Shown here in pieces: positions 8,305 to 60,304 of a stretch of DNA of 64,000 nt. The stretch comes from Isoptericola halotolerans (GTDB taxonomy: Bacteria > Actinomycetota > Actinomycetes > Actinomycetales > Cellulomonadaceae). A program made the translations under genes and the position numbers. Location of the stretch: the NCBI RefSeq assembly GCF_003003075.1, contig NZ_PVTX01000002.1, positions 62,001 to 126,000 of the forward strand, in the 5' to 3' direction. The notes under the pieces are model-generated. The model saw nothing but the letters and a program-made list of their open reading frames with translations. It ran no database searches and was not told where the DNA came from. Positions within the stretch are counted from its first letter, which is position 1, and each line of letters opens with the position of its first letter.

Positions 8305-9339
8305 GTGCCCCGCCCAGCCTCCCGACGTCGCGCCGCCCGCACGCTCCTGGCGGCGGCGGTCCTGGCTGCCCTCGGGTGGCCGACGACGGCGGGCGCGGCA
8401 GAGGTCTCGCCGGCCGGCCCGCCCGTGGCCGCCCGGCACGTGCCGCTGCCCGAGGCCACCACGATCACCGGATGGCGGCCGGCGGAGTCCGGCGTGGCCG
8501 GGGAGCACCTCAGGGACGTCGTGCTGGTCTCGCCGGCCCGGGGCCGTGAGCTCGAGGTGCAGCAGCAGGTCGGCGGCACCTGGGTGACGCGCCAGGTCCT
8601 CCGGCTCGCGGACGGCGAGGTGGACGTCACCGACGTGCCGCTCACCCGGCACTGGACGCACGACCGTGCCACCCGCTGGCGTCTCGCCGTCGGCGGCAGC
8701 GGGTCCGCGGCGCCCGCCGTGAGCGGCGTGAAGGTGGTCACGGCCTCCTGGGAGGCTGCCGACGACCCGCGCGACCCGGCCGTCCTGGTCAACAAGCGGC
8801 ACCCGGTGCAGCCCCGGTCCTGGGAGCCGGACCGGCTGGTCCGGCCCGCGCTCGCCACCGCCGGGTCGCGTGTGCGGCTGCGGCCCGTGGCCGCCGACGC
8901 GCTGGCCGGGCTGGCGACCGCCGCCCGGAAGGCGACCGGCAAGGAGCTCGTCCTCGTCTCGGGCTATCGGTCCGCCGGCTACCAGGAACGGCTCCACGAC
9001 CGGTACGTGCGCGGGCACGGAGCAGAGGCGGCAGAGCGGTTCTCCGCCCGCGCCGGGCACTCGGAGCACCAGACCGGGCTGGCGGCCGACGTGACCCAGG
9101 CGGGGGTGGACCTCACGCGCTTCGGGGGGACGCCGTCGTCGGACTGGGTCGCGGCCCACGCCTGGCGCCATGGGTTCGTGGTGCGCTACACCGCCGGCGA
9201 CGCGGACGTGACCGGCTACGCGGCCGAGCCGTGGCACCTGCGCTACGTGGGGCCGGACCTGGCGGCGTACGTGCACCACACCGGGCTCACGCTCGAGGAG
9301 GCGCTCGGCGCCGAGGCGGCCCCCGACTACCTCGGCTGA
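8305..9339 (+). CDS. secreted VanY-family D-Ala-D-Ala carboxypeptidase (M15B)
   Basis: 344 residues from a GTG start. A twin-Arg-containing basic N-terminus and hydrophobic stretch (ARTLLAAAVLAALGWPTTAGAA) give a cleavable signal peptide. An N-terminal domain of about 150 residues is of unknown type; the C-terminal 180 residues are the M15 peptidase: VSGYRSAGYQERL, the zinc motif SEHQTGLAADV (SxHxxGxAxD) and EPWHLRYVG carrying the second zinc His. It trims the terminal D-Ala from peptidoglycan stem peptides. It is divergent from the PBP gene, so two cell-wall enzymes share one 103-base promoter region. Its final codons (DYLG, then stop) fall inside the first unit of a 20-base repeat array. 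Confidence 0.88.
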   Translation: MPRPASRRRAARTLLAAAVLAALGWPTTAGAAEVSPAGPPVAARHVPLPEATTITGWRPAESGVAGEHLRDVVLVSPARGRELEVQQQVGGTWVTRQVLRLADGEVDVTDVPLTRHWTHDRATRWRLAVGGSGSAAPAVSGVKVVTASWEAADDPRDPAVLVNKRHPVQPRSWEPDRLVRPALATAGSRVRLRPVAADALAGLATAARKATGKELVLVSGYRSAGYQERLHDRYVRGHGAEAAERFSARAGHSEHQTGLAADVTQAGVDLTRFGGTPSSDWVAAHAWRHGFVVRYTAGDADVTGYAAEPWHLRYVGPDLAAYVHHTGLTLEEALGAEAAPDYLG

Positions 9340-9376
9340 ACCGGTACTACCTCGGCGCGAGCGCTACTACCTCGGC
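9325..9376. repeat. 20-base tandem repeat array, three units, at convergent gene ends
   Basis: The core CTACCTCGGC (GCCGAGGTAG on the other strand) occurs at 9327, 9347 and 9367, exactly 20 bases apart with unrelated 10-base spacers. The first copy lies in the last codons of the VanY gene and the third supplies the TAG stop of the convergent MalY-type gene. The same core and period recur at 14.85, 29.85 and 60.26 kb. Confidence 0.85.
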
Positions 9377-10566
9377 GGGAGGGCCTTCGTCAGGCGCGAC
9401 ACCGCCTCCGTGAGGGTCTCGGCCGACGCCGCGAGGTTCAGCCGGAGCCGGCCCTCACCGCCGGTGCCGAACTGCCGGCCGTCCCCGAGGGCCAGGCGTG
9501 CCGTCCGCAGCACGTGGTGGTGCGGGTCGGCGCCCTCGGGCACCGCATCCCGCACGTCCAGCCACATCAGGTAGGTGCCGTCGGCCGGGTGGACCCGCAC
9601 CGCCGGCGCGTGCTCGGCCAGCAGCCCCGTCACCAGCTCCCGGTTGCGCACGATCCCCGCCCGCAGCGCGTCGAGCCACTCGTCGCCCTCGGTGTACGCC
9701 GCGGCGTGCGCGATGACGGCGAGGTGGTTCACGGCGTGCCCGGCGATCTCGGGCATGCGCCGCAGGTCGTCGGCCGCGCCGGGGCCACCCACCGCCGTCG
9801 CGGCCCGCAGGCCGGCGAGGTTGAACGCCTTCGACGCCGAGTGCACCGCGATCGCGCCCTCGCTCCCCGCGACGGAGAGCAACGGCGTGAACGGGGTGGC
9901 GCCGTCGGCCAGGTCGGCGAACGTGAAGGGTGCGTGGATCTCGTCGGCCACCACCCGGACGCCGTACCGGTCCGCGAGCGCCAGCACCGCCTCGAGCTCG
10001 GCGCGCGTGTGGACGGTGCCCGTCGGGTTGTGGGGGCTGCACAGCAGCAGGACGGCGCGGCGGCCCGAGCCGGGGCCGCGGCCGTGCCCCGAGATGCCCG
10101 TCGCGACCTTGAAGGCCGACTCGAGCGTGCCGAGGTCGAGGCGGCCGGCGGCGTCGAGCGGCGCCTCGACGACCTGGCGGCCCTCGTTGCGGGTGTACGC
10201 GTAGAACGGCTGGTAGACGGGCGGGGTGACGACGACGGCGTCCCCCGGGCCGGTGAGGACTCGCAGCACCTCGACCACGGCCACCATCACGTCCGGCAGC
10301 GTGCGGCTCGTGCCGACGTCGGGCGTCCAGCCCCAGCGGCGCGCGGCGAACGGTGCGAGCGCCGCGGCGTACCCGGTGCCGTGGTCGTAGCCGGTGTCGC
10401 CGAGCTCCAGCGCGCGCTGCACGGCGGCCACGAGGAACGGCGCCTGGGGCACGTCCATCTCCGCGACGAACAGCGGCAGCACGTCCTCGGGGTAGGCGCG
10501 CCACTTGACGGAGGTACGACGGCGCAGGTCAGCCAGTGAGAGCTGGTCCAGGGGGTTCTCGATCAC
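9367..10566 (-). CDS. MalY/PatB-type PLP-dependent aminotransferase or cystathionine beta-lyase
   Basis: 399 residues, fold type I PLP enzyme. The N-terminus NPLDQLSLADLRRRTSVKWRAYPEDVLPLFVAEMDVP is the hallmark of the MalY/PatB branch, which cleaves cystathionine or cysteine conjugates. Other motifs: PPVYQPFYAY, CSPHNPTGTVHTRAEL, VVADEIHAPF (PLP Asp), SASKAFNLAGLR with the PLP-binding Lys, and GRLRLNLA near the C-terminus. Likely cytoplasmic sulfur amino-acid metabolism. The only possible start is the GTG at 10566, since an in-frame TAG lies just upstream; that GTG and a GAGGGG element lie in the 3' arm of an 11-bp hairpin. The stop codon comes from the 20-base repeat. Confidence 0.88.
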   Translation of the reverse strand: MIENPLDQLSLADLRRRTSVKWRAYPEDVLPLFVAEMDVPQAPFLVAAVQRALELGDTGYDHGTGYAAALAPFAARRWGWTPDVGTSRTLPDVMVAVVEVLRVLTGPGDAVVVTPPVYQPFYAYTRNEGRQVVEAPLDAAGRLDLGTLESAFKVATGISGHGRGPGSGRRAVLLLCSPHNPTGTVHTRAELEAVLALADRYGVRVVADEIHAPFTFADLADGATPFTPLLSVAGSEGAIAVHSASKAFNLAGLRAATAVGGPGAADDLRRMPEIAGHAVNHLAVIAHAAAYTEGDEWLDALRAGIVRNRELVTGLLAEHAPAVRVHPADGTYLMWLDVRDAVPEGADPHHHVLRTARLALGDGRQFGTGGEGRLRLNLAASAETLTEAVSRLTKALPPR

Positions 10567-13854: not shown

Positions 13855-14856
13855 ATGACACAGACCGTGACGGGTGTCGGCGACGTCCCCGACGTCGGCG
13901 CGCGCCTCGAGGAGTACCGGCGGGAGCTCACGGGCTACTGCTACCGGATGCTCGGCGGGGCCGGCGACGCGGACGACGCCGTCCAGGAGACGATGCTGCG
14001 CGCCTGGCGCGCCTACGACCGCTTCGAGGGGCGGTCCTCCCTGCGGTCCTGGCTCTACCGGATCGCGACCAACGTGTGCTTCGACGCGCTCGGCGCGTCC
14101 AAGCGCCGCGAACGACCGATGGGGCTCGGCGGCCCCCAGCCGGCCGAGATCGAGAACTTCGGCGAGACGCTGCCGGAGGACCGCTGGGTCGAGCCCGTGG
14201 CGGACGACGCCGTGCTGCCCCGCGAGGGGGACCCGGCGCAGATGGCCGTGGGGCGCGAGTCGGTCCGGCTCGCGTTCGTCGCCGCCCTGCAGCATCTTCC
14301 GCCCCGCCAGCGCGCGGTGCTGGTGCTGCGCGAGGTGCTGCGCTGGTCGGCGGCGGAGACGGCGACCCTGCTCGACACCACCGTGGTCTCGGTGAACTCC
14401 GCGCTGCAGCGGGCCCGCGCCACCCTCGGCACGAAGGCGCTGGAGCGCGACGAGGCCCGGTGGGGCACGGTCGACGACGAGCTCCTGGAGCGCTACCTCG
14501 ATGCGTTCGAGCGCTACGACATGGAGGCCCTGGTCGCCCTGCTGCGCGAGGACGCCGTGCTGAACATGCCGCCGTACACGCTGTGGGTGTCCGGTCCGCG
14601 GGAGATCGCCCGGTGGATGCTCGGCCCGGGGCACGGGTGCCGCGGGTCGCGGTGCCTGCGGGTGCGGGCCAACGGCTCGATGGCGTTCGGGCAGTACCGC
14701 GCGTCCCCGGACGGCGGGTGGGCGCCGTGGGGGCTGGTGGTCCTCGAGGACGACGGCGTCGGTCACATCACCGGCATCACGACGTTCCTCGACACGGCGA
14801 CGTGGTTCCCGCGCTTCGGGCTCCCCGACCACCTGCCCACCGAGCCCGCGAGGTAG
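13855..14856 (+). CDS. ECF RNA polymerase sigma factor, SigG/SigX5 type with SnoaL-like tail
   Basis: 333 residues. Region 2 (about 20-90) includes LTGYCYRMLGGAGDADDAVQ followed by ETMLRAWRAYDRFEG and LRSWLYRIATNVCFDAL; region 4 (about 140-195) includes LQHLPPRQRAVLVLREVLRW and the helix-turn-helix TTVVSVNSALQRARA. The C-terminal 130 residues form a SnoaL/NTF2-like domain (ERYLDAFERYDMEALVALLR, DAVLNMPPYTLWVSG), as in the SigG family (TIGR02960), where it is thought to replace a separate anti-sigma factor. The stop codon TAG and last Arg come from the first unit of a five-copy 20-base repeat. Confidence 0.93.
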   Translation: MTQTVTGVGDVPDVGARLEEYRRELTGYCYRMLGGAGDADDAVQETMLRAWRAYDRFEGRSSLRSWLYRIATNVCFDALGASKRRERPMGLGGPQPAEIENFGETLPEDRWVEPVADDAVLPREGDPAQMAVGRESVRLAFVAALQHLPPRQRAVLVLREVLRWSAAETATLLDTTVVSVNSALQRARATLGTKALERDEARWGTVDDELLERYLDAFERYDMEALVALLREDAVLNMPPYTLWVSGPREIARWMLGPGHGCRGSRCLRVRANGSMAFGQYRASPDGGWAPWGLVVLEDDGVGHITGITTFLDTATWFPRFGLPDHLPTEPAR

Positions 14857-14940
14857 CGCGGGACACGCCGAGGTAGCGCGGGACTCGCCGAGGTAGGGCG
14901 GAACTCGCCGAGGTAGGGCCGCTCGCGGCGAGGTAGCAGC
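14848..14940 (+). repeat. 20-base tandem repeat array, five units, spanning a stop codon
   Basis: GAGGTAG occurs at 14850, 14870, 14890, 14910 and 14930, an exact 20-base period. The unit reads roughly GCCGAGGTAGSGCGGRACWC. The first copy is the end of the sigma gene (AGG-TAG, Arg-stop); the remaining copies fill almost the whole gap to the fluoride-channel pair. Confidence 0.92.
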
Positions 14941-14954
14941 GCGGCGCGTCCGCC

Positions 14955-15416
14955 ATGATGGTGCCCGTGACCTCGCCCCGGCCCCCGCACCGCGACCTGC
15001 GGCTGCTCGGGCTCGTCGCGCTCGGCGGGGCCGTCGGCTCCGGCCTGCGCTACGCGGTGTCGCTCGCCCTCCCGGCCGAGCCGGACGGCTGGCCGTGGGC
15101 GACCTTCGCCGTCAACGTCGTCGGGGCGTTCGCCCTCGGATGGCTGCTCGAGGCCCTCGCGGTCCACGGTCGCGAGACCGACCGCCTGCGCCGGCTCCGC
15201 CTGTTCGGGGGCACCGGCGTGCTCGGCGGCTTCACCACCTACTCGTCGCTCGCGCTCGACGTCGAGACGTTGCTCTCGGGCGGCCAGTGGCAGACGGCGC
15301 TGGCGTACTCCGGAGCCACGCTGCTGCTCGGCCTCGTGGCTGCGCTGCTCGGGGTGCTCGCCGGCCTGCGCACGTCCCGCGGCCCCCGCGGCCCCCGCCC
15401 GGGGCGGGGCCGATGA
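14955..15416 (+). CDS. crcB: fluoride channel subunit FluC/CrcB, first of a pair
   Basis: Up to 153 residues with four hydrophobic helices: LLGLVALGGAVGSGLRYAV, WATFAVNVVGAFALGWLLEAL, the break motif GGFTTYSSLALD, and LLLGLVAALLGVLAG. The NVVGAF Asn and FTTYSS polar track line the fluoride path in Fluc dual-topology channels. The N-terminal start is uncertain: ATG 14955 and 14958 and GTG 14967 are all close together. The stop overlaps the start of the second subunit by four bases (ATGA), as expected for subunits made in equal amounts. No convincing fluoride riboswitch was seen upstream. Confidence 0.88.
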   Translation: MMVPVTSPRPPHRDLRLLGLVALGGAVGSGLRYAVSLALPAEPDGWPWATFAVNVVGAFALGWLLEALAVHGRETDRLRRLRLFGGTGVLGGFTTYSSLALDVETLLSGGQWQTALAYSGATLLLGLVAALLGVLAGLRTSRGPRGPRPGRGR

Positions 15417-23923: not shown

Positions 23924-24649
23924 CTACCTGCCGCCCGACGCGGCGTCGTGGACCGCGATCGCCGCCTGCACCCGGTTGGCCGCCCCCAGCTTGTCGAGGA
24001 TCCGCGACACGTGCGTCTTGACCGTCGGCACGCTCAGGTAGAGCCGGGCCGCGATCTCCGCGTTGGACAGACCCTCGGCCAGCACCGCGGCGACCTCCCG
24101 CTCCCGGTCGGTCAGTGTCGCGAGACGGCGCCGTGCGAGCAGCCGCGCGTCGCGGGCGCCGTCCGCCGGGTCCGCCGAGAACTGGGCCATCAGCTGGCTC
24201 ATGACCGACGGTGACAGCGTCGGCTCCCCGTCCGCCGCCGCCCGGACCGCGGCGACCAGCCGGTCGGGCGGGGTGTCCTTCAGCAGGAAACCCGCGGCCC
24301 CGGCACGCAGGGCGCGCAGCACCATGTCGTCCGTGTCGAACGTGGTCAGCACGATGACCCGCGGCGCACCATCACTCGCACCGCCACCGGTGGCACCACC
24401 CGCGGCACCACCCGCGGCACCTCCGGGTGCGACGATGCGCCGGGTCGCCTCGATCCCGTCCATGCGCGGCATCCGGATGTCCATGAGGACGACGTCGGGG
24501 CGCATGCGGCGTACCAGCTCCACGCCATCGTCGCCGTCGCCGGCGTCGCCGACGACCCGCACCTCCGGGGCGCCGCCGAGGATCAGGCCCAGCCCGGCGC
24601 GTACCAGCGCGTCGTCGTCGACCACGACGACGGAGATCGAGTCGGTCAT
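23924..24649 (-). CDS. NarL/LuxR-type response regulator
   Basis: 241 residues. Receiver domain (about 5-140): VVVVDDDALVRAGL, phospho-acceptor Asp in DVVLMDIRMPRMDGIEA, VIVLTTFDTDD, and Lys in FLLKDTPPD. DNA-binding domain (about 175-240): LTDREREVAAVLAEGLSNAE then IAARLYLSVPTVKTHVSRILDKLG. A Gly/Ala run (GGAAGGAAGGATGGGASDG) is inserted between alpha-3 and beta-4 of the receiver, coded by near-repeats of 12 bases. The ATG overlaps the stop of the sensor kinase by four bases. It probably controls the divergent ABC transporter at 26.1 kb. Confidence 0.92.
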   Translation of the reverse strand: MTDSISVVVVDDDALVRAGLGLILGGAPEVRVVGDAGDGDDGVELVRRMRPDVVLMDIRMPRMDGIEATRRIVAPGGAAGGAAGGATGGGASDGAPRVIVLTTFDTDDMVLRALRAGAAGFLLKDTPPDRLVAAVRAAADGEPTLSPSVMSQLMAQFSADPADGARDARLLARRRLATLTDREREVAAVLAEGLSNAEIAARLYLSVPTVKTHVSRILDKLGAANRVQAAIAVHDAASGGR

Positions 24650-25929
24650 GGCGCCCACGGTAGCCAGGCACGCAACGTGAAGCGGCCGTCCGTCGCCCGT
24701 GCCGTCAACGTGCCCCCGGCCAGCTCGGCCCGCTCCGTGAGCCCGAGCAGCCCCAGGCCCGACGGCGGCACCGACGGTGCGTCGTCCCCGCCGGCGTCCG
24801 TCAGCGCGGTCGGGTTCGTCACCGTGATCCACAGCCCCTGCCCCGGCGCACCGTGCAGCACCACCGAGGCGGAGAGCTCCGGCGCGTGCTTGCGCACGTT
24901 CGTCAGGGCCTCCTGGACGATCCGGTACGCGGTGCGGGACGCCGCCGTCGGCAGCTTCTCCGGACTGTCCCGGCGGTCCTCCAGCCGGACCGGGGTCCCG
25001 GCGTCCGTGGTGGAGCGGGCCAGCGCCGGCAGGTCGACGAGCGTGGGCTGGGGACGCTCCGGATCGGCTGCGTGGGGCCCACCGACCGCGCCCGCCGGCG
25101 GACCGTCCAGCCCGCGCAGCACGCCGAGCACCTCGCGGAGCTCGCCGAGCGCCGCGTGGGCGCTGTCCCGCACCAGCGCGGCCGTCTCGGCGACCTGCTC
25201 GCGCGGCAGGTCCGTCCGGTACGCCAACGCGCCCGCGTGCATCGCGACCAGCGACATGCGGTGCGCCAGCACGTCGTGCATCTCCCGCGCGATCCGTGCG
25301 CGCTCGTTCGCCCGTGCCTGCGCGACCCGGCTCGCCTGCTCACGCTCCGCCGTCGCGATCCGCTCGTGCAGGCCGGCGAGGTACTCGCGCCGCAGGCCGA
25401 TGTACGCCCCGATCCACACCATGAGCGAGTAGAGGACGACTCCCCCGCCCAGGGCGACGGGCCACCCCACGCTGTCCACCGGCGGGTAGAGCCGTTCGTA
25501 CGTCCAGCCGCTGAGGACGTACACCACCCCGACCGCGACGATGCGCCACCACTGCCGGTGCGTCGCCAACGACACCACCGCCAGGGCCACCGGCCCGACG
25601 GCGAGCACCGACACGGCAGCACCCGCACAGACGAGCAGGGCGATCGTCGTCGGCCACCGCCGACGCAGGAGCACCAGGCCGAAGCAGACCAGCCCCACCA
25701 GGACGTCGAGGGCGACCTGCTGCTCGGAGATCGGCTGCTGCGCCGACTCGGCCTCCACCGCCATGCCACCGAAGACGATCGTGCTGAACACCAGCGCCAC
25801 CGCCAGCCGCCACGTCTCGCCCCACACCCGACGCCAGACCCCCCGGGTGCGTGCCCTGTCCCGCGCTGCGGGGTCGGTGTCGAGCACGGCCGGGTCGGGC
25901 CGGTACGGGTCGTCCGTCGGGGTGGGCAC
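24646..25929 (-). CDS. sensor histidine kinase, HisKA_3/NarX-DesK class
   Basis: 427 residues from the GTG at 25929. An N-terminal cytoplasmic tail, about five or six transmembrane helices (residues about 35-180), a coiled segment, the dimerisation/phosphorylation helix ARIAREMHDVLAHRMSLVAM with the phospho-His, and an ATPase domain with QEALTNVRKHAP (N-box) and SGLGLLGLTERAELAGG (G-box). Few extracytoplasmic residues suggest it senses in or near the membrane, as do cell-envelope-stress kinases. Coupled to its response regulator by an ATGA overlap. Confidence 0.92.
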   Translation of the reverse strand: MPTPTDDPYRPDPAVLDTDPAARDRARTRGVWRRVWGETWRLAVALVFSTIVFGGMAVEAESAQQPISEQQVALDVLVGLVCFGLVLLRRRWPTTIALLVCAGAAVSVLAVGPVALAVVSLATHRQWWRIVAVGVVYVLSGWTYERLYPPVDSVGWPVALGGGVVLYSLMVWIGAYIGLRREYLAGLHERIATAEREQASRVAQARANERARIAREMHDVLAHRMSLVAMHAGALAYRTDLPREQVAETAALVRDSAHAALGELREVLGVLRGLDGPPAGAVGGPHAADPERPQPTLVDLPALARSTTDAGTPVRLEDRRDSPEKLPTAASRTAYRIVQEALTNVRKHAPELSASVVLHGAPGQGLWITVTNPTALTDAGGDDAPSVPPSGLGLLGLTERAELAGGTLTARATDGRFTLRAWLPWAP

Positions 25930-29827: not shown

Positions 29828-29880
29828 CGACCTCGGCGAGGTTCGCACTACCTCGGCGGGGACGGGACGACGTCGGCGGG
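29828..29880. repeat. 20-base tandem repeat array, one good and two degenerate units
   Basis: CTACCTCGGCG at 29848 has CGACCTCGGCG at 29828 and CGACGTCGGCG at 29868, each 20 bases away. The middle copy supplies the TAG stop of the nuclease gene on the minus strand (PPR-stop). Same core and period as the arrays at 9.33, 14.85 and 60.26 kb. Confidence 0.8.
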
Positions 29881-30744
29881 TCCGGTGAGCTCCGTCCAGC
29901 CCGACGGCGGCCGGTGGGAGACGGTCCTCGGCTCGAGCGGGCGGTCGGGCGCCGGGCCACGGACGTCGGCGGCCACCAGCGGGCCGAGGCCCAGGCCGGT
30001 CAGCCGCTCGACGTCGGCGACCGGCACCTGGAACGTGCGGAAGGGGCCGAGGGGCGGCACGTGCCCGACGGCGAGCGCCCGTCCCGTCGCGGTGCTCAGC
30101 TCGGCGTCGGTGAGCAACGGCGTCTGGTCGAGCACGAACGCGGCGGACTGCAGGGTGGGTGCGGGGCTGCCCGTCCCCGGCCCGTCGCCCGCTGCTGCCC
30201 AGGCGACGACCTTCCAGAACTGCCGCGGGATCGCGACGCCCCGGTAGACAGGGTCGGCGCCGAGGAACACGCACCCGGTTTGGACCACGACCCGGTGGTC
30301 GTGGGCGTCGGCGTACTCGAGCACGTGGTCCTCGAGCCCGTTCCACAGCTCCTTCGACTGGTTGAGCTCGGCGACCTGCGGCGCCGCGTTGGTGTAGACG
30401 AACGTGGCCTCGCCCGCCTCGCGAGCCTCCTCGATCGTGCCCCACATGGGGTCCAGCCGCCGGACCAGGTGCCCGCGGTCGAGCGGGTTGTGGCGGTAGA
30501 GCTCGTTGCCCGCCTGCTCGTGCGGCGGCGCCTGCGGGTCGAGCCGCCAGCTCCCGGACCTGGGCAGGGGCCGGAGCCGTGCCCCGTCCACGGTGCAGGC
30601 CGTGGCGGCGGCGAGTCGGCGCTGCGGGTCGAGGAGCACGCTGAATCGGGGGTGGTCGAGCTGCCGCAGCGGACGCCCGGCGGTGGGCAGGGGTACGCGG
30701 ACGGCCTCGTCGGGGCCGAGGAACTGGGCGTCGTAGCCGGTCAC
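29848..30744 (-). CDS. DNA/RNA non-specific endonuclease (NUC1/NucA type)
   Basis: 298 residues from a GTG at 30744. LYRHNPLDRGHLVRRLDPMW contains the DRGH catalytic motif (general-base His), and TFVYTNAAPQVAELNQSKE with the metal-binding Asn follows, as in the beta-beta-alpha-Me nuclease family. VVVQTGCVFLGADPVYRGVAIPRQFWKVV is the typical family strand pair. No clear signal peptide is seen, unusual because most relatives are secreted; either the start is wrong or the enzyme acts in the cell or by another route. The last residues lie in the 20-base repeat. Confidence 0.85.
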   Translation of the reverse strand: MTGYDAQFLGPDEAVRVPLPTAGRPLRQLDHPRFSVLLDPQRRLAAATACTVDGARLRPLPRSGSWRLDPQAPPHEQAGNELYRHNPLDRGHLVRRLDPMWGTIEEAREAGEATFVYTNAAPQVAELNQSKELWNGLEDHVLEYADAHDHRVVVQTGCVFLGADPVYRGVAIPRQFWKVVAWAAAGDGPGTGSPAPTLQSAAFVLDQTPLLTDAELSTATGRALAVGHVPPLGPFRTFQVPVADVERLTGLGLGPLVAADVRGPAPDRPLEPRTVSHRPPSGWTELTGPADVVPSPPR

Positions 30745-46732: not shown

Positions 46733-47182
46733 ATGGAAAGCGTCACCAAGTCCATCGACGTCGACGTCCCCGTGAGCACCGCCTACAACCAGTGGACGCA
46801 GTTCGAGGACTTCCCGCACTTCATGGAGGGTGTGGAGGAGATCCGTCAGCTCACCGACACGACCACGCACTGGAAGACGAAGGTGGGTGGCACGGAGCAC
46901 GAGTTCGACGCCCGGATCACCGAGCAGCACCCCGACGAGCGTGTCGCCTGGAGCAGCACCACCGGCCCCGACCATGCGGGAGTCGTGACGTTCCACCGGC
47001 TGAGCGACGCCCAGACGCGGGTCACCGTCCAGATGGACTGGGACCCGGAGGGTGCCAAGGAGAAGGTCGGCGCCGCCCTCAACTTCGACGACCGCCGTGT
47101 CGAGGGCGACCTGAAGAAGTTCAAGTCGTTCATCGAGTCGCGCGGCGCCGAGACCGGCGCCTGGCGCGGCGACGTGAGCTGA
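46733..47182 (+). CDS. SRPBCC-fold protein (CoxG/polyketide-cyclase-like)
   Basis: 149 residues, a small START-like helix-grip fold: SVTKSIDVDVPVSTAYNQWTQFEDFPHFMEGVEEIRQL at the N-terminus and VEGDLKKFKSFIESRG as the long C-terminal helix. The family binds hydrophobic ligands or acts in cell-wall and lipid homeostasis; no specific substrate can be assigned. A strong AAGGAGG site lies just before the ATG. Its last codons (GDVS-stop) lie in a duplicated 19-base unit. Confidence 0.85.
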   Translation: MESVTKSIDVDVPVSTAYNQWTQFEDFPHFMEGVEEIRQLTDTTTHWKTKVGGTEHEFDARITEQHPDERVAWSSTTGPDHAGVVTFHRLSDAQTRVTVQMDWDPEGAKEKVGAALNFDDRRVEGDLKKFKSFIESRGAETGAWRGDVS

Positions 47183-47207
47183 CGTCCGCGACGTGAGCTG
47201 ACGTCCC
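47171..47207. repeat. 19-base duplication spanning the SRPBCC gene stop
   Basis: GACGTGAGCTGACGTCC occurs at 47171-47187 and again at 47190-47206 (unit GACGTGAGCTGACGTCCGC). The first copy holds the last codons and TGA stop of the SRPBCC gene; the second repeats them after the stop. Confidence 0.85.
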
Positions 47208-47230
47208 CGATGTCGTCCGGCGCGCACCGA

Positions 47231-47278
47231 CGGCCGGTCACCCTGCTCCCCTCCGTGGGAGCGACGGGTGGCCGGCCG
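47231..47278 (+). terminator. intrinsic-type hairpin after the SRPBCC gene
   Basis: CGGCCGGTCACCC and GCTCCC pair with GGGAGC and GGGTGGCCGGCCG around a small loop, giving about 18 paired positions with an interior bulge. It lies between convergent genes, so it may serve both. No clear U-run. Confidence 0.7.
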
Positions 47279-47292
47279 TCGTCGTGCGCCGA

Positions 47293-47346
47293 GCCGTCAG
47301 CCGTGGCCGCAGGCTGTCAGCCGTGGCCGTGGGCCGTCAGCCGTGG
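47293..47346. repeat. 20-base tandem repeat spanning the LVIVD-protein stop
   Basis: GTCAGCCGTGG occurs at 47296, 47316 and 47336, exactly 20 bases apart. On the minus strand the last one is the FHG-stop end of the LVIVD-protein gene; the other two repeat it downstream of the stop. Confidence 0.88.
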
Positions 47347-59003: not shown

Positions 59004-60284
59004 GTGCAGTGCCCCCACTACGACGCCGGCCGGTGCCGTTCGTGCACCCTGATCCAGCTCGACCGCCCCACACAGGTGGCCGGCAAGGAAGCGCACGTCC
59101 GTGAGCTGCTCGCGGTGTACGACGACGTCACGTGGCTCCCGGCCGTCACCGGGGCCGAGAGCGGCTTCCGCAACAAGGCCAAGATGGTGGTCACCGGCAC
59201 GGTCGAGGAGCCGGTGCTCGGGATCGTGGGCCCGCCGGGGCCGTTCGCCGGGCAGAGCGTGGACCTCACGGACTGCGGCCTCTACCCGCCGGCCCTGCAG
59301 GCGGCGTTCGGCCCGCTGGCCGAGCTGGTCACCCGAGCACGGCTCCGGCCCTACGACCTCTCGCCCGCGGCGCAGGGCGGTGGCCCGGGCACTCCCGGCC
59401 GCCGCCGCAAGGTCACCCCGCGCGACGCCGCCCGGCGCGGCGAGCTCAAGCACGTCCTGGTGACCCTCTCCCCCGACGGCGAGCTGATGGTCCGTCTCGT
59501 GCTGCGCTCCACCGAGGCCGTCGCCCGGATCCGCAAGCACCTCCCGTGGCTGCAGAGCGCGCTCCCCGGCCTGGCGGTGCTCAGCGTCAACGTCCAGCCC
59601 GTGCACGCCGCGGTGCTGGAGGGCGAGCAGGAGATCGTCCTCACCGACCGCGAGACGCTGCCCATGGGTGTCGACGGCGTGACCCTGCACCTGCGCCCGC
59701 AGAGCTTCTTCCAGACCAACACCGAGGTGGCCGCGGCCCTGTACCGGCAGGCCCGCCAGTGGGTCGGTGAGGTCGACCCGGGGTCTCTCTGGGACCTGTA
59801 CTGCGGGGTCGGCGGCTTCGCGCTGCACTGCGCCGCACCGGGCCGGGCCGTGACCGGCATCGAGATCTCGGCGGAGGCCGTGGCGTCGGCGACGACGACG
59901 GCGGGCGAGCTGGCCGCGCTGCCGCCGGACGCCGTCGTCGGCGGGCAGGACGCCGCGTGGTGGCGCGACGCGATGGCGGACGTGCGGTTCGCCGCGGGCG
60001 ACGCGACCGGGTTCGCGCTCGGCACGGACGCGGACCCGGAGCTGGTGGTCGTCAACCCGCCGCGGCGCGGGATCGGGACGGAGCTGGCGCGGCGGTTGGA
60101 GGCTTCGAACGCGCAGCACGTGCTGTACTCGAGCTGCCACGCCACGACGCTGGCCCGCGACCTGGCCGAGATGCCGTCGCTGCGGCCGCGTCGCGCCGTG
60201 CTGCTCGACATGTTCCCGCAGACGGACCACTACGAGGTGCTGGTCCTCCTCGAGCGCGAGGTAGTGCCCCACCCCGCGAGGTAG
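59004..60284 (+). CDS. rlmC: 23S rRNA (uracil-C5)-methyltransferase, RlmC/TrmA family
   Basis: 426 residues from a GTG. The 4Fe-4S-type Cys cluster is C3, C11 and C14 (MQCPHYDAGRCRSCTLIQLD), with DCGLYP farther on supplying the fourth. SAM site WDLYCGVGGFALHCA, ligand strand VVNPPRRGIGTELA, and the catalytic nucleophile in YSSCHATTLARDL. It methylates uracil at C5 in 23S rRNA. RlmC (U747) is the best match by length and lack of a TRAM domain; RlmD or a tRNA enzyme cannot be fully excluded. Its last codons (VVPHPAR-stop) lie in a 20-base repeat that supplies the TAG. Confidence 0.88.
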   Translation: MQCPHYDAGRCRSCTLIQLDRPTQVAGKEAHVRELLAVYDDVTWLPAVTGAESGFRNKAKMVVTGTVEEPVLGIVGPPGPFAGQSVDLTDCGLYPPALQAAFGPLAELVTRARLRPYDLSPAAQGGGPGTPGRRRKVTPRDAARRGELKHVLVTLSPDGELMVRLVLRSTEAVARIRKHLPWLQSALPGLAVLSVNVQPVHAAVLEGEQEIVLTDRETLPMGVDGVTLHLRPQSFFQTNTEVAAALYRQARQWVGEVDPGSLWDLYCGVGGFALHCAAPGRAVTGIEISAEAVASATTTAGELAALPPDAVVGGQDAAWWRDAMADVRFAAGDATGFALGTDADPELVVVNPPRRGIGTELARRLEASNAQHVLYSSCHATTLARDLAEMPSLRPRRAVLLDMFPQTDHYEVLVLLEREVVPHPAR

Positions 60285-60304
60285 TGCCCCACCCCGCGAG
60301 GGAG
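60256..60304 (+). repeat. 20-base tandem repeat array, two full units and a partial, at the rlmC stop
   Basis: GCGAGGTAGTGCCCCACCCC occurs at 60256 and 60276, with GCGAGGGAG at 60296. The second copy gives the rlmC stop (AGG-TAG); the first, in a different frame because 20 is not a multiple of three, encodes EVV. The partial third lies before the convergent sigma4-ZAS gene. Confidence 0.9.

Follow-up and report, generated by a model that had tools for sequence, protein, structure and literature searches.

Plasmid iterons and tandem operator arrays are direct repeats spaced by about two turns of the helix, with a conserved core and a looser spacer. The Sal-box (TTF-I) terminator repeats of animal rRNA genes are likewise tandem, oriented protein sites behind a gene, and they change fast and in a species-specific way. 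REPs, by comparison, are palindromes tied to Y1 transposases. One kind, the GTAG REPs, is described by Di Nocera et al. 2013 (PMC3733652) as intergenic, near 3' ends and mainly between convergent and co-directional genes; their termini often provide a TAG stop codon, and their families are species-specific. The DNA uptake sequences (DUS) of Neisseriaceae are described as dialects (PMC3630211), each a short word peculiar to its species in which a core is fixed and other positions vary. Here we describe ladders of the word GAGGTAG repeated at an exact step of 20 bases. Among the matches listed from the open-access literature (subscription journals lie mostly outside this coverage) no description of such arrays was found.

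The window, by which we mean the whole 64-kb stretch of Isoptericola halotolerans DNA that was analysed, contains 23 copies of GAGGTAG, compared with 2.3 expected from shuffles. Genes were called throughout by a purpose-written caller, whose starts, and some of whose short genes, may be wrong. The arrays and the genes beside them are as follows.

9327..9373, minus strand: array of three units where the aminotransferase gene ends, its first unit forming that gene's TAG stop
9367..10566, minus strand: class I/II aminotransferase gene, its C-terminus (Pro-Pro-Arg-stop) inside the array
13855..14856, plus strand: sigma-70-family gene (regions 2 and 4) with a C-terminal SnoaL-like domain
14848..14940, plus strand: five-unit array, GAGGTAG at 14850, 14870, 14890, 14910 and 14930
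14955..15416, plus strand: CrcB-like gene, its called start 18 bases past the last core of the five-unit array
29828..29874, minus strand: degenerate ladder, a single exact core at 29848-29854, flanked 20 bases away by GAGGTCG and GACGTCG
29848..30744, minus strand: non-specific DNA/RNA endonuclease gene, its TAG stop within the single exact core
59004..60284, plus strand: tRNA (uracil-5-)-methyltransferase-like gene, its stop in the second unit of the next array
60255..60304, plus strand: two exact units, spanning 60258-60284, followed by a degenerate third (GAGGGAG); the stop comes from the second unit

The five positions given for the sigma-gene array in the initial annotation are borne out by a direct count. 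The same core and step had also been reported at three other loci. Two of these stand, 9327-9373 (minus strand, three units) and 60258-60284 (two exact units, the third degenerate), but the locus at 29.85 kb has a single exact core; in the sense direction, the word 20 bases upstream of it is the degenerate GACGTCG and the one 20 bases downstream the degenerate GAGGTCG. As reported, all four adjoining genes take their stop from a core; the sigma gene's TAG, for example, comes from the first unit of its array (AGG TAG, Arg-stop). At 60.26 kb the second unit supplies the stop; in the called frame the first lies within the gene and is read through. The constancy of reading frame that had seemed informative is automatic, because a TAG stop read from AGGTAG always gives Arg-stop; the frame changes from each unit to the next, since 20 is not divisible by 3. 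Most gene ends of the window have no core in any compared species (20-kb syntenic stretches), and a search of the window for Rfam families gave no matches at gathering thresholds. Another convergent gene pair, at 47171-47346, carries at both ends tandem duplications that include the stop codon, one of 19 bases twice over (GACGTGAGCTGA region) and one of 20 bases three times over (CCACGGCTGAC region, minus strand); these are unrelated to GAGGTAG.

The initial annotation had let its case turn on whether core and step recur elsewhere in the genome. They do: GAGGTAG-N13-GAGGTAG occurs 236 times in the 3.85 Mb (22 contigs) of the window's genome, 144 times forward and 92 times reverse, compared with no matches to the same pattern read backwards. 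Where successive cores are separated by gaps of at most 130 bases, 100 of the 106 gaps are exactly 20 in this genome, and 51 of 58 are so between cores of a second word, GAGTCAG, in two relatives. Arrays have 2 to 13 units, each made up of an 8-base core (CGAGGTAG or CGAGTCAG), then two or three species-specific bases, and then a freer spacer. Constraint was measured on middle units lying between two exact cores 40 bases apart, and so without selection on the unit's own core. GAGGTAG middle units (n=70 from the window's genome, n=192 from relatives) have core letters fixed at 97-100% and spacer letters at 34-79% (40-79% in the window's genome). Those of GAGTCAG (n=35) have core letters at 91-100%, with spacer letters beside the core at up to 97%. 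Step-20 duplications in 633 3'-end windows of array-bearing genomes comprise 12 with GAGGTAG, 11 with GAGTCAG-type cores and three others. A general habit of 20-base duplication at gene ends was rejected on this count (the ladder core is present in 23 of 26 cases and absent from 3), and the step is specific to the core.

Most arrays lie behind genes and run in the direction of transcription. Distances and frames to stop codons, which the initial annotation proposed to tabulate, were compiled for 30 arrays, namely those of the window and, on contigs 1-3, the genome matches listed: 26 are behind a gene in the sense direction. The same holds in named relatives (arrays of at least three units) for 55 of 66, the latter being 97 arrays minus 31 near a locus end. 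The first core falls between -27 and +30 bases from the stop in 19 of the 26 sense arrays of the window's genome and in 53 of the 55 of the relatives. Stop supply is less general, for the first or second unit gives the stop in only 11 of the 26 (eight at offset -7 and three at -27, the remaining sense arrays following a separate stop codon) and in 19 of the 55. Seven of the 15 arrays that lack an upstream sense gene have a nearby facing partner array, and one more has a partner behind a short gene; of 47 pairs of neighbours on opposite strands in the first sets, 46 pointed towards each other. Across array-bearing genomes, arrays occur at 15/194 convergent versus 8/334 co-directional gene ends (p=0.007), a difference that is not significant when the comparison is with co-directional gaps longer than 60 bases (8/142; p=0.52). 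No link to gene families emerged, the 144 array-bearing genes forming no cluster larger than four and several clusters being orthologues. Nor did one to tRNA or tmRNA: in the array-bearing loci searched, from a scan of 170, one array lies within 800 bases of a tRNA.

GAGTCAG arrays were all in the sense direction in a first small sample (7/7). A larger sample from a single genome, G116, has 29 of 43 in sense and 14 antisense, some arrays between divergent genes, and several back-to-back junctions, and these features together weaken the case for a purely 3'-end or RNA role. Three G116 loci (L272, L282 and L283) share an exact palindromic back-to-back junction, CTGACTCGCGAGTCAG, where the GAGTCAG ladder flips direction. 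Read in sense, GAGTCAG has no stop codon in any frame and nevertheless keeps the 20-base ladder. Selection for a stop codon, which the initial annotation had suggested, therefore fails as a general function, and stop supply is a by-product of ladders that reach up to the gene end.

The congeners G110 and G084 have no GAGGTAG ladders; samples of 60 and 40 kb from them, not selected for arrays, give a step-20 signal with the core GAGTCAG, into which GACTCAG is mixed in G110. The bases that follow the core in consensus units vary as well: TG in the window's genome, GCA in AK164, CGC in two metagenome-assembled genomes and G141, TTC in K. flava, TAC in G149 and QY 916, and AAC, AGC, AGG or TAC in a related genus, g8 (which we take to be probably Cellulosimicrobium), with CGC or GAC after GAGTCAG. 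Common to these dialects is CGAG-NN-AG, then two variable bases, often then C.

The comparison of orthologous gene ends proposed at the outset, made over 20-kb stretches of synteny with the window, shows differences between species in both unit number and core word. The sigma gene ends in five GAGGTAG cores in the window's genome (G000), one in G094, one in G042, and none in G021, G058 and G141, and in four GAGTCAG cores in G116 and six or more in G110. The end of gene 23924-24658 has seven GAGGTAG in G058, and five GAGTCAG in G116 and three in G110. At one convergent pair the ladders are of GAGTCAG in G084 and of GAGGTAG at the orthologous pair of the metagenome-assembled genome RH59_bin.036. 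The core word differs between species at two gene ends or more, being GAGGTAG in one and GAGTCAG in another, which is a small overlap. GAGTCAG appears in two places on a sigma-gene tree (single gene, midpoint root), in G116 with G110 and in G084 beside the GAGGTAG-bearing G058. Such differences of core word between species suggest a fast-evolving reading factor. No ladders were found in G021, a genome that clusters with G000 and G094, both of them array-bearing. At the ends of its sigma and aminotransferase genes stand cores with a single mismatch (GACGTAG and GCGGTAG), possibly relics, possibly chance resemblances.

Near relatives differ in unit number at the same gene end, with five cores versus one behind the sigma gene, and three versus two, the latter only 13 apart, behind the aminotransferase gene. 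Spacers are more alike between adjacent units than between loci, with similarities of 0.64 versus 0.52 in the window's genome and 0.72/0.60, 0.76/0.62, 0.78/0.61 and 0.59/0.56 in four further genomes, so ladders appear to grow locally. The self-amplifying 3'-end element of the initial annotation is thus partly supported. Identical spacers at different loci do not exceed chance in the window's genome (one pair versus 0.34 expected), and none occur in the small G110 sample. G116 has 14 such pairs versus 2.2 expected (maximum 8 in 100 simulations), and some inter-locus copying is conceivable there. Two related forms may be recorded here. At loci L031-L037 of genus g8 a pair of cores points towards a pair in reverse orientation, with a spacing of 20 bases throughout; some of these four-site forms have exactly complementary 27-base arms, and 5 of the 7 lie between convergent genes. 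A dispersed palindrome-like element with CCCGAAGTGGAGGGC and GCCCGTGAACGCGAC occurs beside or between ladders in several species (L117, L227, L229, L230, L174 and L232), and its seed, CCCGAAGTGGAG, in 24 loci, some of them overlapping.

The two-core GAGGTAG pattern is present in 34 of 150 genomes and 8 of 25 genera of the family sample, in which the reversed-pattern control matched once each in two of the 150 genomes. Ten of 16 genomes of the window's genus have it, with 0 to 286 matches each. Triples of GAGNNAG were matched in 14 of the 18 genomes of the genus searched, the four without being G021, G072, G127 and G132. Three-unit GAGGTAG ladders in a scan of named genomes came, among the matches listed (80 loci of at least 103 stretches), mainly from Isoptericola and Krasilnikoviella, with two loci of Oerskovia flava and one record labelled Sphaerisporangium cinnabarinum; five loci of unrelated organisms (L071, L075, L090, L096 and L133) were left out of all counts. 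An order-wide search matched 10 of 248 genomes, a sample from which genus g8 is absent; many matches occurred only in the three Isoptericola genomes sampled, and the other seven had one to seven each, several of them perfect or ten-base repeats. The sole match in one genome of another family, G258, is a three-unit CGACTGAG ladder of step 20 (L240:9317-9364) whose first unit forms a TGA stop, and this single array may be due to chance. A viral origin was considered and rejected. Three-unit ladders turned up in IMG/VR on 10 contigs in one scan and on 1 in another; we judge these contigs unrelated because 10 of the 11 have a ten-base period and their G+C content is 39-55%; the exception, L261, is a perfect 20-base repeat on a contig of 45% G+C. 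Six of these metagenomic viral contigs (L260, L262, L263, L265, L266 and L267) share the ten-base tandem repeat gaggtagACT and a similar flank.

The arrays show little structure when folded. Isolated 24-base units fold about as well as spacer-shuffled units in five Isoptericola-group genomes, and those of G116 slightly better than controls (-4.99 versus -4.38, sd 2.3). A G+C-rich hairpin followed by a T-run (judged by eye), as in intrinsic terminators, was not found in the unit. Four arrays of the window and relatives, folded alone, gave z scores of -1.8 to 1.9, one more gave -0.3, and the median of 122 arrays was -0.5. Strong hairpins (z < -2) accompanied 17% of arrays and 21% of downstream stretches versus 46% of controls in a first test, the controls of which took in array-negative genomes. 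Over whole intergenic regions of array-bearing sets, stems of at least 10 pairs occur at 0.33 of 55 single-orientation array ends versus 0.36 of 254 others. As this comparison shows no difference, the first result reflects position and not the replacement of terminators by arrays: hairpins are displaced from array-bearing ends, yet they are present there. Being equally common at ends with and without arrays, hairpins are not clearly replaced by the arrays, and a terminator role for the latter is unproven.

Our preferred explanation, held tentatively, is that the arrays are multi-site recognition ladders for a putative sequence-specific factor. Fixed step, constrained core, freer spacers, orientation and change of dialect would together be best explained by something that reads several sites at once. 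The factor would probably be a protein that binds cooperatively to repeated sites at the fixed 20-base spacing, or about two turns of DNA; a reader of the 3' untranslated region at the RNA level is a possible variant. The G116 data lean towards DNA. Ladders would persist chiefly behind genes, oriented with transcription and often as facing pairs between two genes, where their likely role would be to mark or insulate the ends of transcription units. Local slippage would add and remove units, 20 bases or a multiple of 20 at a time. A shift in the specificity of the factor would shift the core and the following bases genome-wide, giving rise to species dialects, and loss of the factor would leave the ladders to decay. 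That these dialect-switching CGAG-NN-AG ladders form a new class of bacterial chromosomal element, with a putative fast-evolving trans-acting reader and repeated core switches between close species, is a more doubtful proposition, though a possible one.

A serious rival to the recognition ladder is a satellite of no benefit to the cell, in which a seed at a gene end expands into the free space behind genes by replication slippage, or by the action of an unspecified enzyme that prefers 20 bases. It fits the differences in unit number between close relatives, the greater likeness of adjacent than of inter-locus spacers in five of five genomes, the excess of spacers common between G116 loci (14 pairs versus 2.2), and the lack of matches in 4 of 18 congeners. 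We consider it rather unlikely: the core is constrained while the spacers are freer, sense orientation is strong in GAGGTAG genomes, and few 20-base duplications of other sequences, and in G000 no inter-locus copying, are seen. Were the arrays instead sense-strand RNA elements, an RNA-binding protein would read 3' untranslated repeats and affect 3'-end formation or decay. The closeness of sense arrays to stops (19 of 26 and 53 of 55 within the -27 to +30 interval) agrees with this, as does the position of the array between stop and hairpin at some loci; the antisense arrays and those between divergent genes in G116, and the hairpin that precedes the sigma-gene array in G110, do not. The scant structure of array RNA is neutral here, and on balance we find this explanation improbable.

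A REP-like element moved by a REP-associated (IS200-type Y1) transposase is largely refuted and very improbable. Location at 3' ends and supply of TAG match the GTAG REPs (PMC3733652), GTAG does end the GAGGTAG core, and some inverted four-site forms of genus g8 have exactly complementary 27-base arms. However, none of the 18 genomes of the genus searched, the window's own among them, yielded a Y1 transposase (PF01797; positive control, 5 of 14 reference genomes), units form no hairpins beyond those of spacer-shuffled controls, and the GTAG tag at the element end, present in GAGGTAG dialects, is absent from those of GAGTCAG. With inter-locus spacers at chance as well, the mobile element of the initial annotation is not supported in the window's genome. 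The species dialects, in which a short word has some positions that are fixed and others that vary, also resemble DUS (PMC3630211), and the ladders might by analogy with Neisseriaceae tag a species' own DNA for natural transformation. ComEC (PF03772) is present in 15 of 18 genomes of the genus, but it was not found in the array-bearing drafts G137, G149 and G151, where contig breaks could hide it. CGAGTCAG occurs per 100 kb of coding sequence 0 times in G110 and G084 and 9.3 times in G116, and is therefore not generally spread through genes. We know of no exact 20-base tandem ladder in DUS, and regard this possibility as exceedingly slight. Slighter still, and refuted as a general function, is that of a three-frame stop cassette. 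The arithmetic is sound, since a TAG word at a 20-base step would place stops in all frames after three units, and 11 of 26 and 19 of 55 sense arrays do supply the stop; most GAGGTAG arrays, however, follow a separate stop, and the GAGTCAG ladder persists without a sense-strand stop in any frame.

If the ladders do have a reader, they would amount to a natural experiment on how, from one close species to the next, a binding specificity and its hundreds of sites shift in concert, the positions that stay fixed and those that vary being already on display; they may also reveal a new mode of marking gene ends in high-G+C actinobacteria. If there is none, they are an unusually orderly satellite, and the exact 20-base step then calls for a mutational explanation.

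Compared with GTAG REPs, the ladders are similarly intergenic near 3' ends, supply TAG stops and are species-specific, so that position and stop supply alone are not new. Unlike REPs, the ladders consist of direct repeats, not palindromic, that recur exactly every 20 bases, one dialect lacks GTAG, and no Y1 transposase was found among 18 genomes of the ladder genus; what differs, then, is the non-palindromic ladder without a Y1 transposase found in those 18 genomes, and the switch of core word. Like DUS, ladder words are short and species-specific with a fixed core and variable positions, but they are tandem, number a few hundred copies, lie mostly behind genes, and occur in drafts where ComEC was not found. 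They share with iterons and operator arrays the spacing of the repeat, the conserved core and the looser spacer, and differ in being scattered over the chromosome behind unrelated genes. With the Sal-box repeats they have in common that they are tandem, oriented, behind genes and subject to fast species-specific change, the protein sites being putative in our case; unlike those repeats, the ladders are bacterial and stand behind many different genes.
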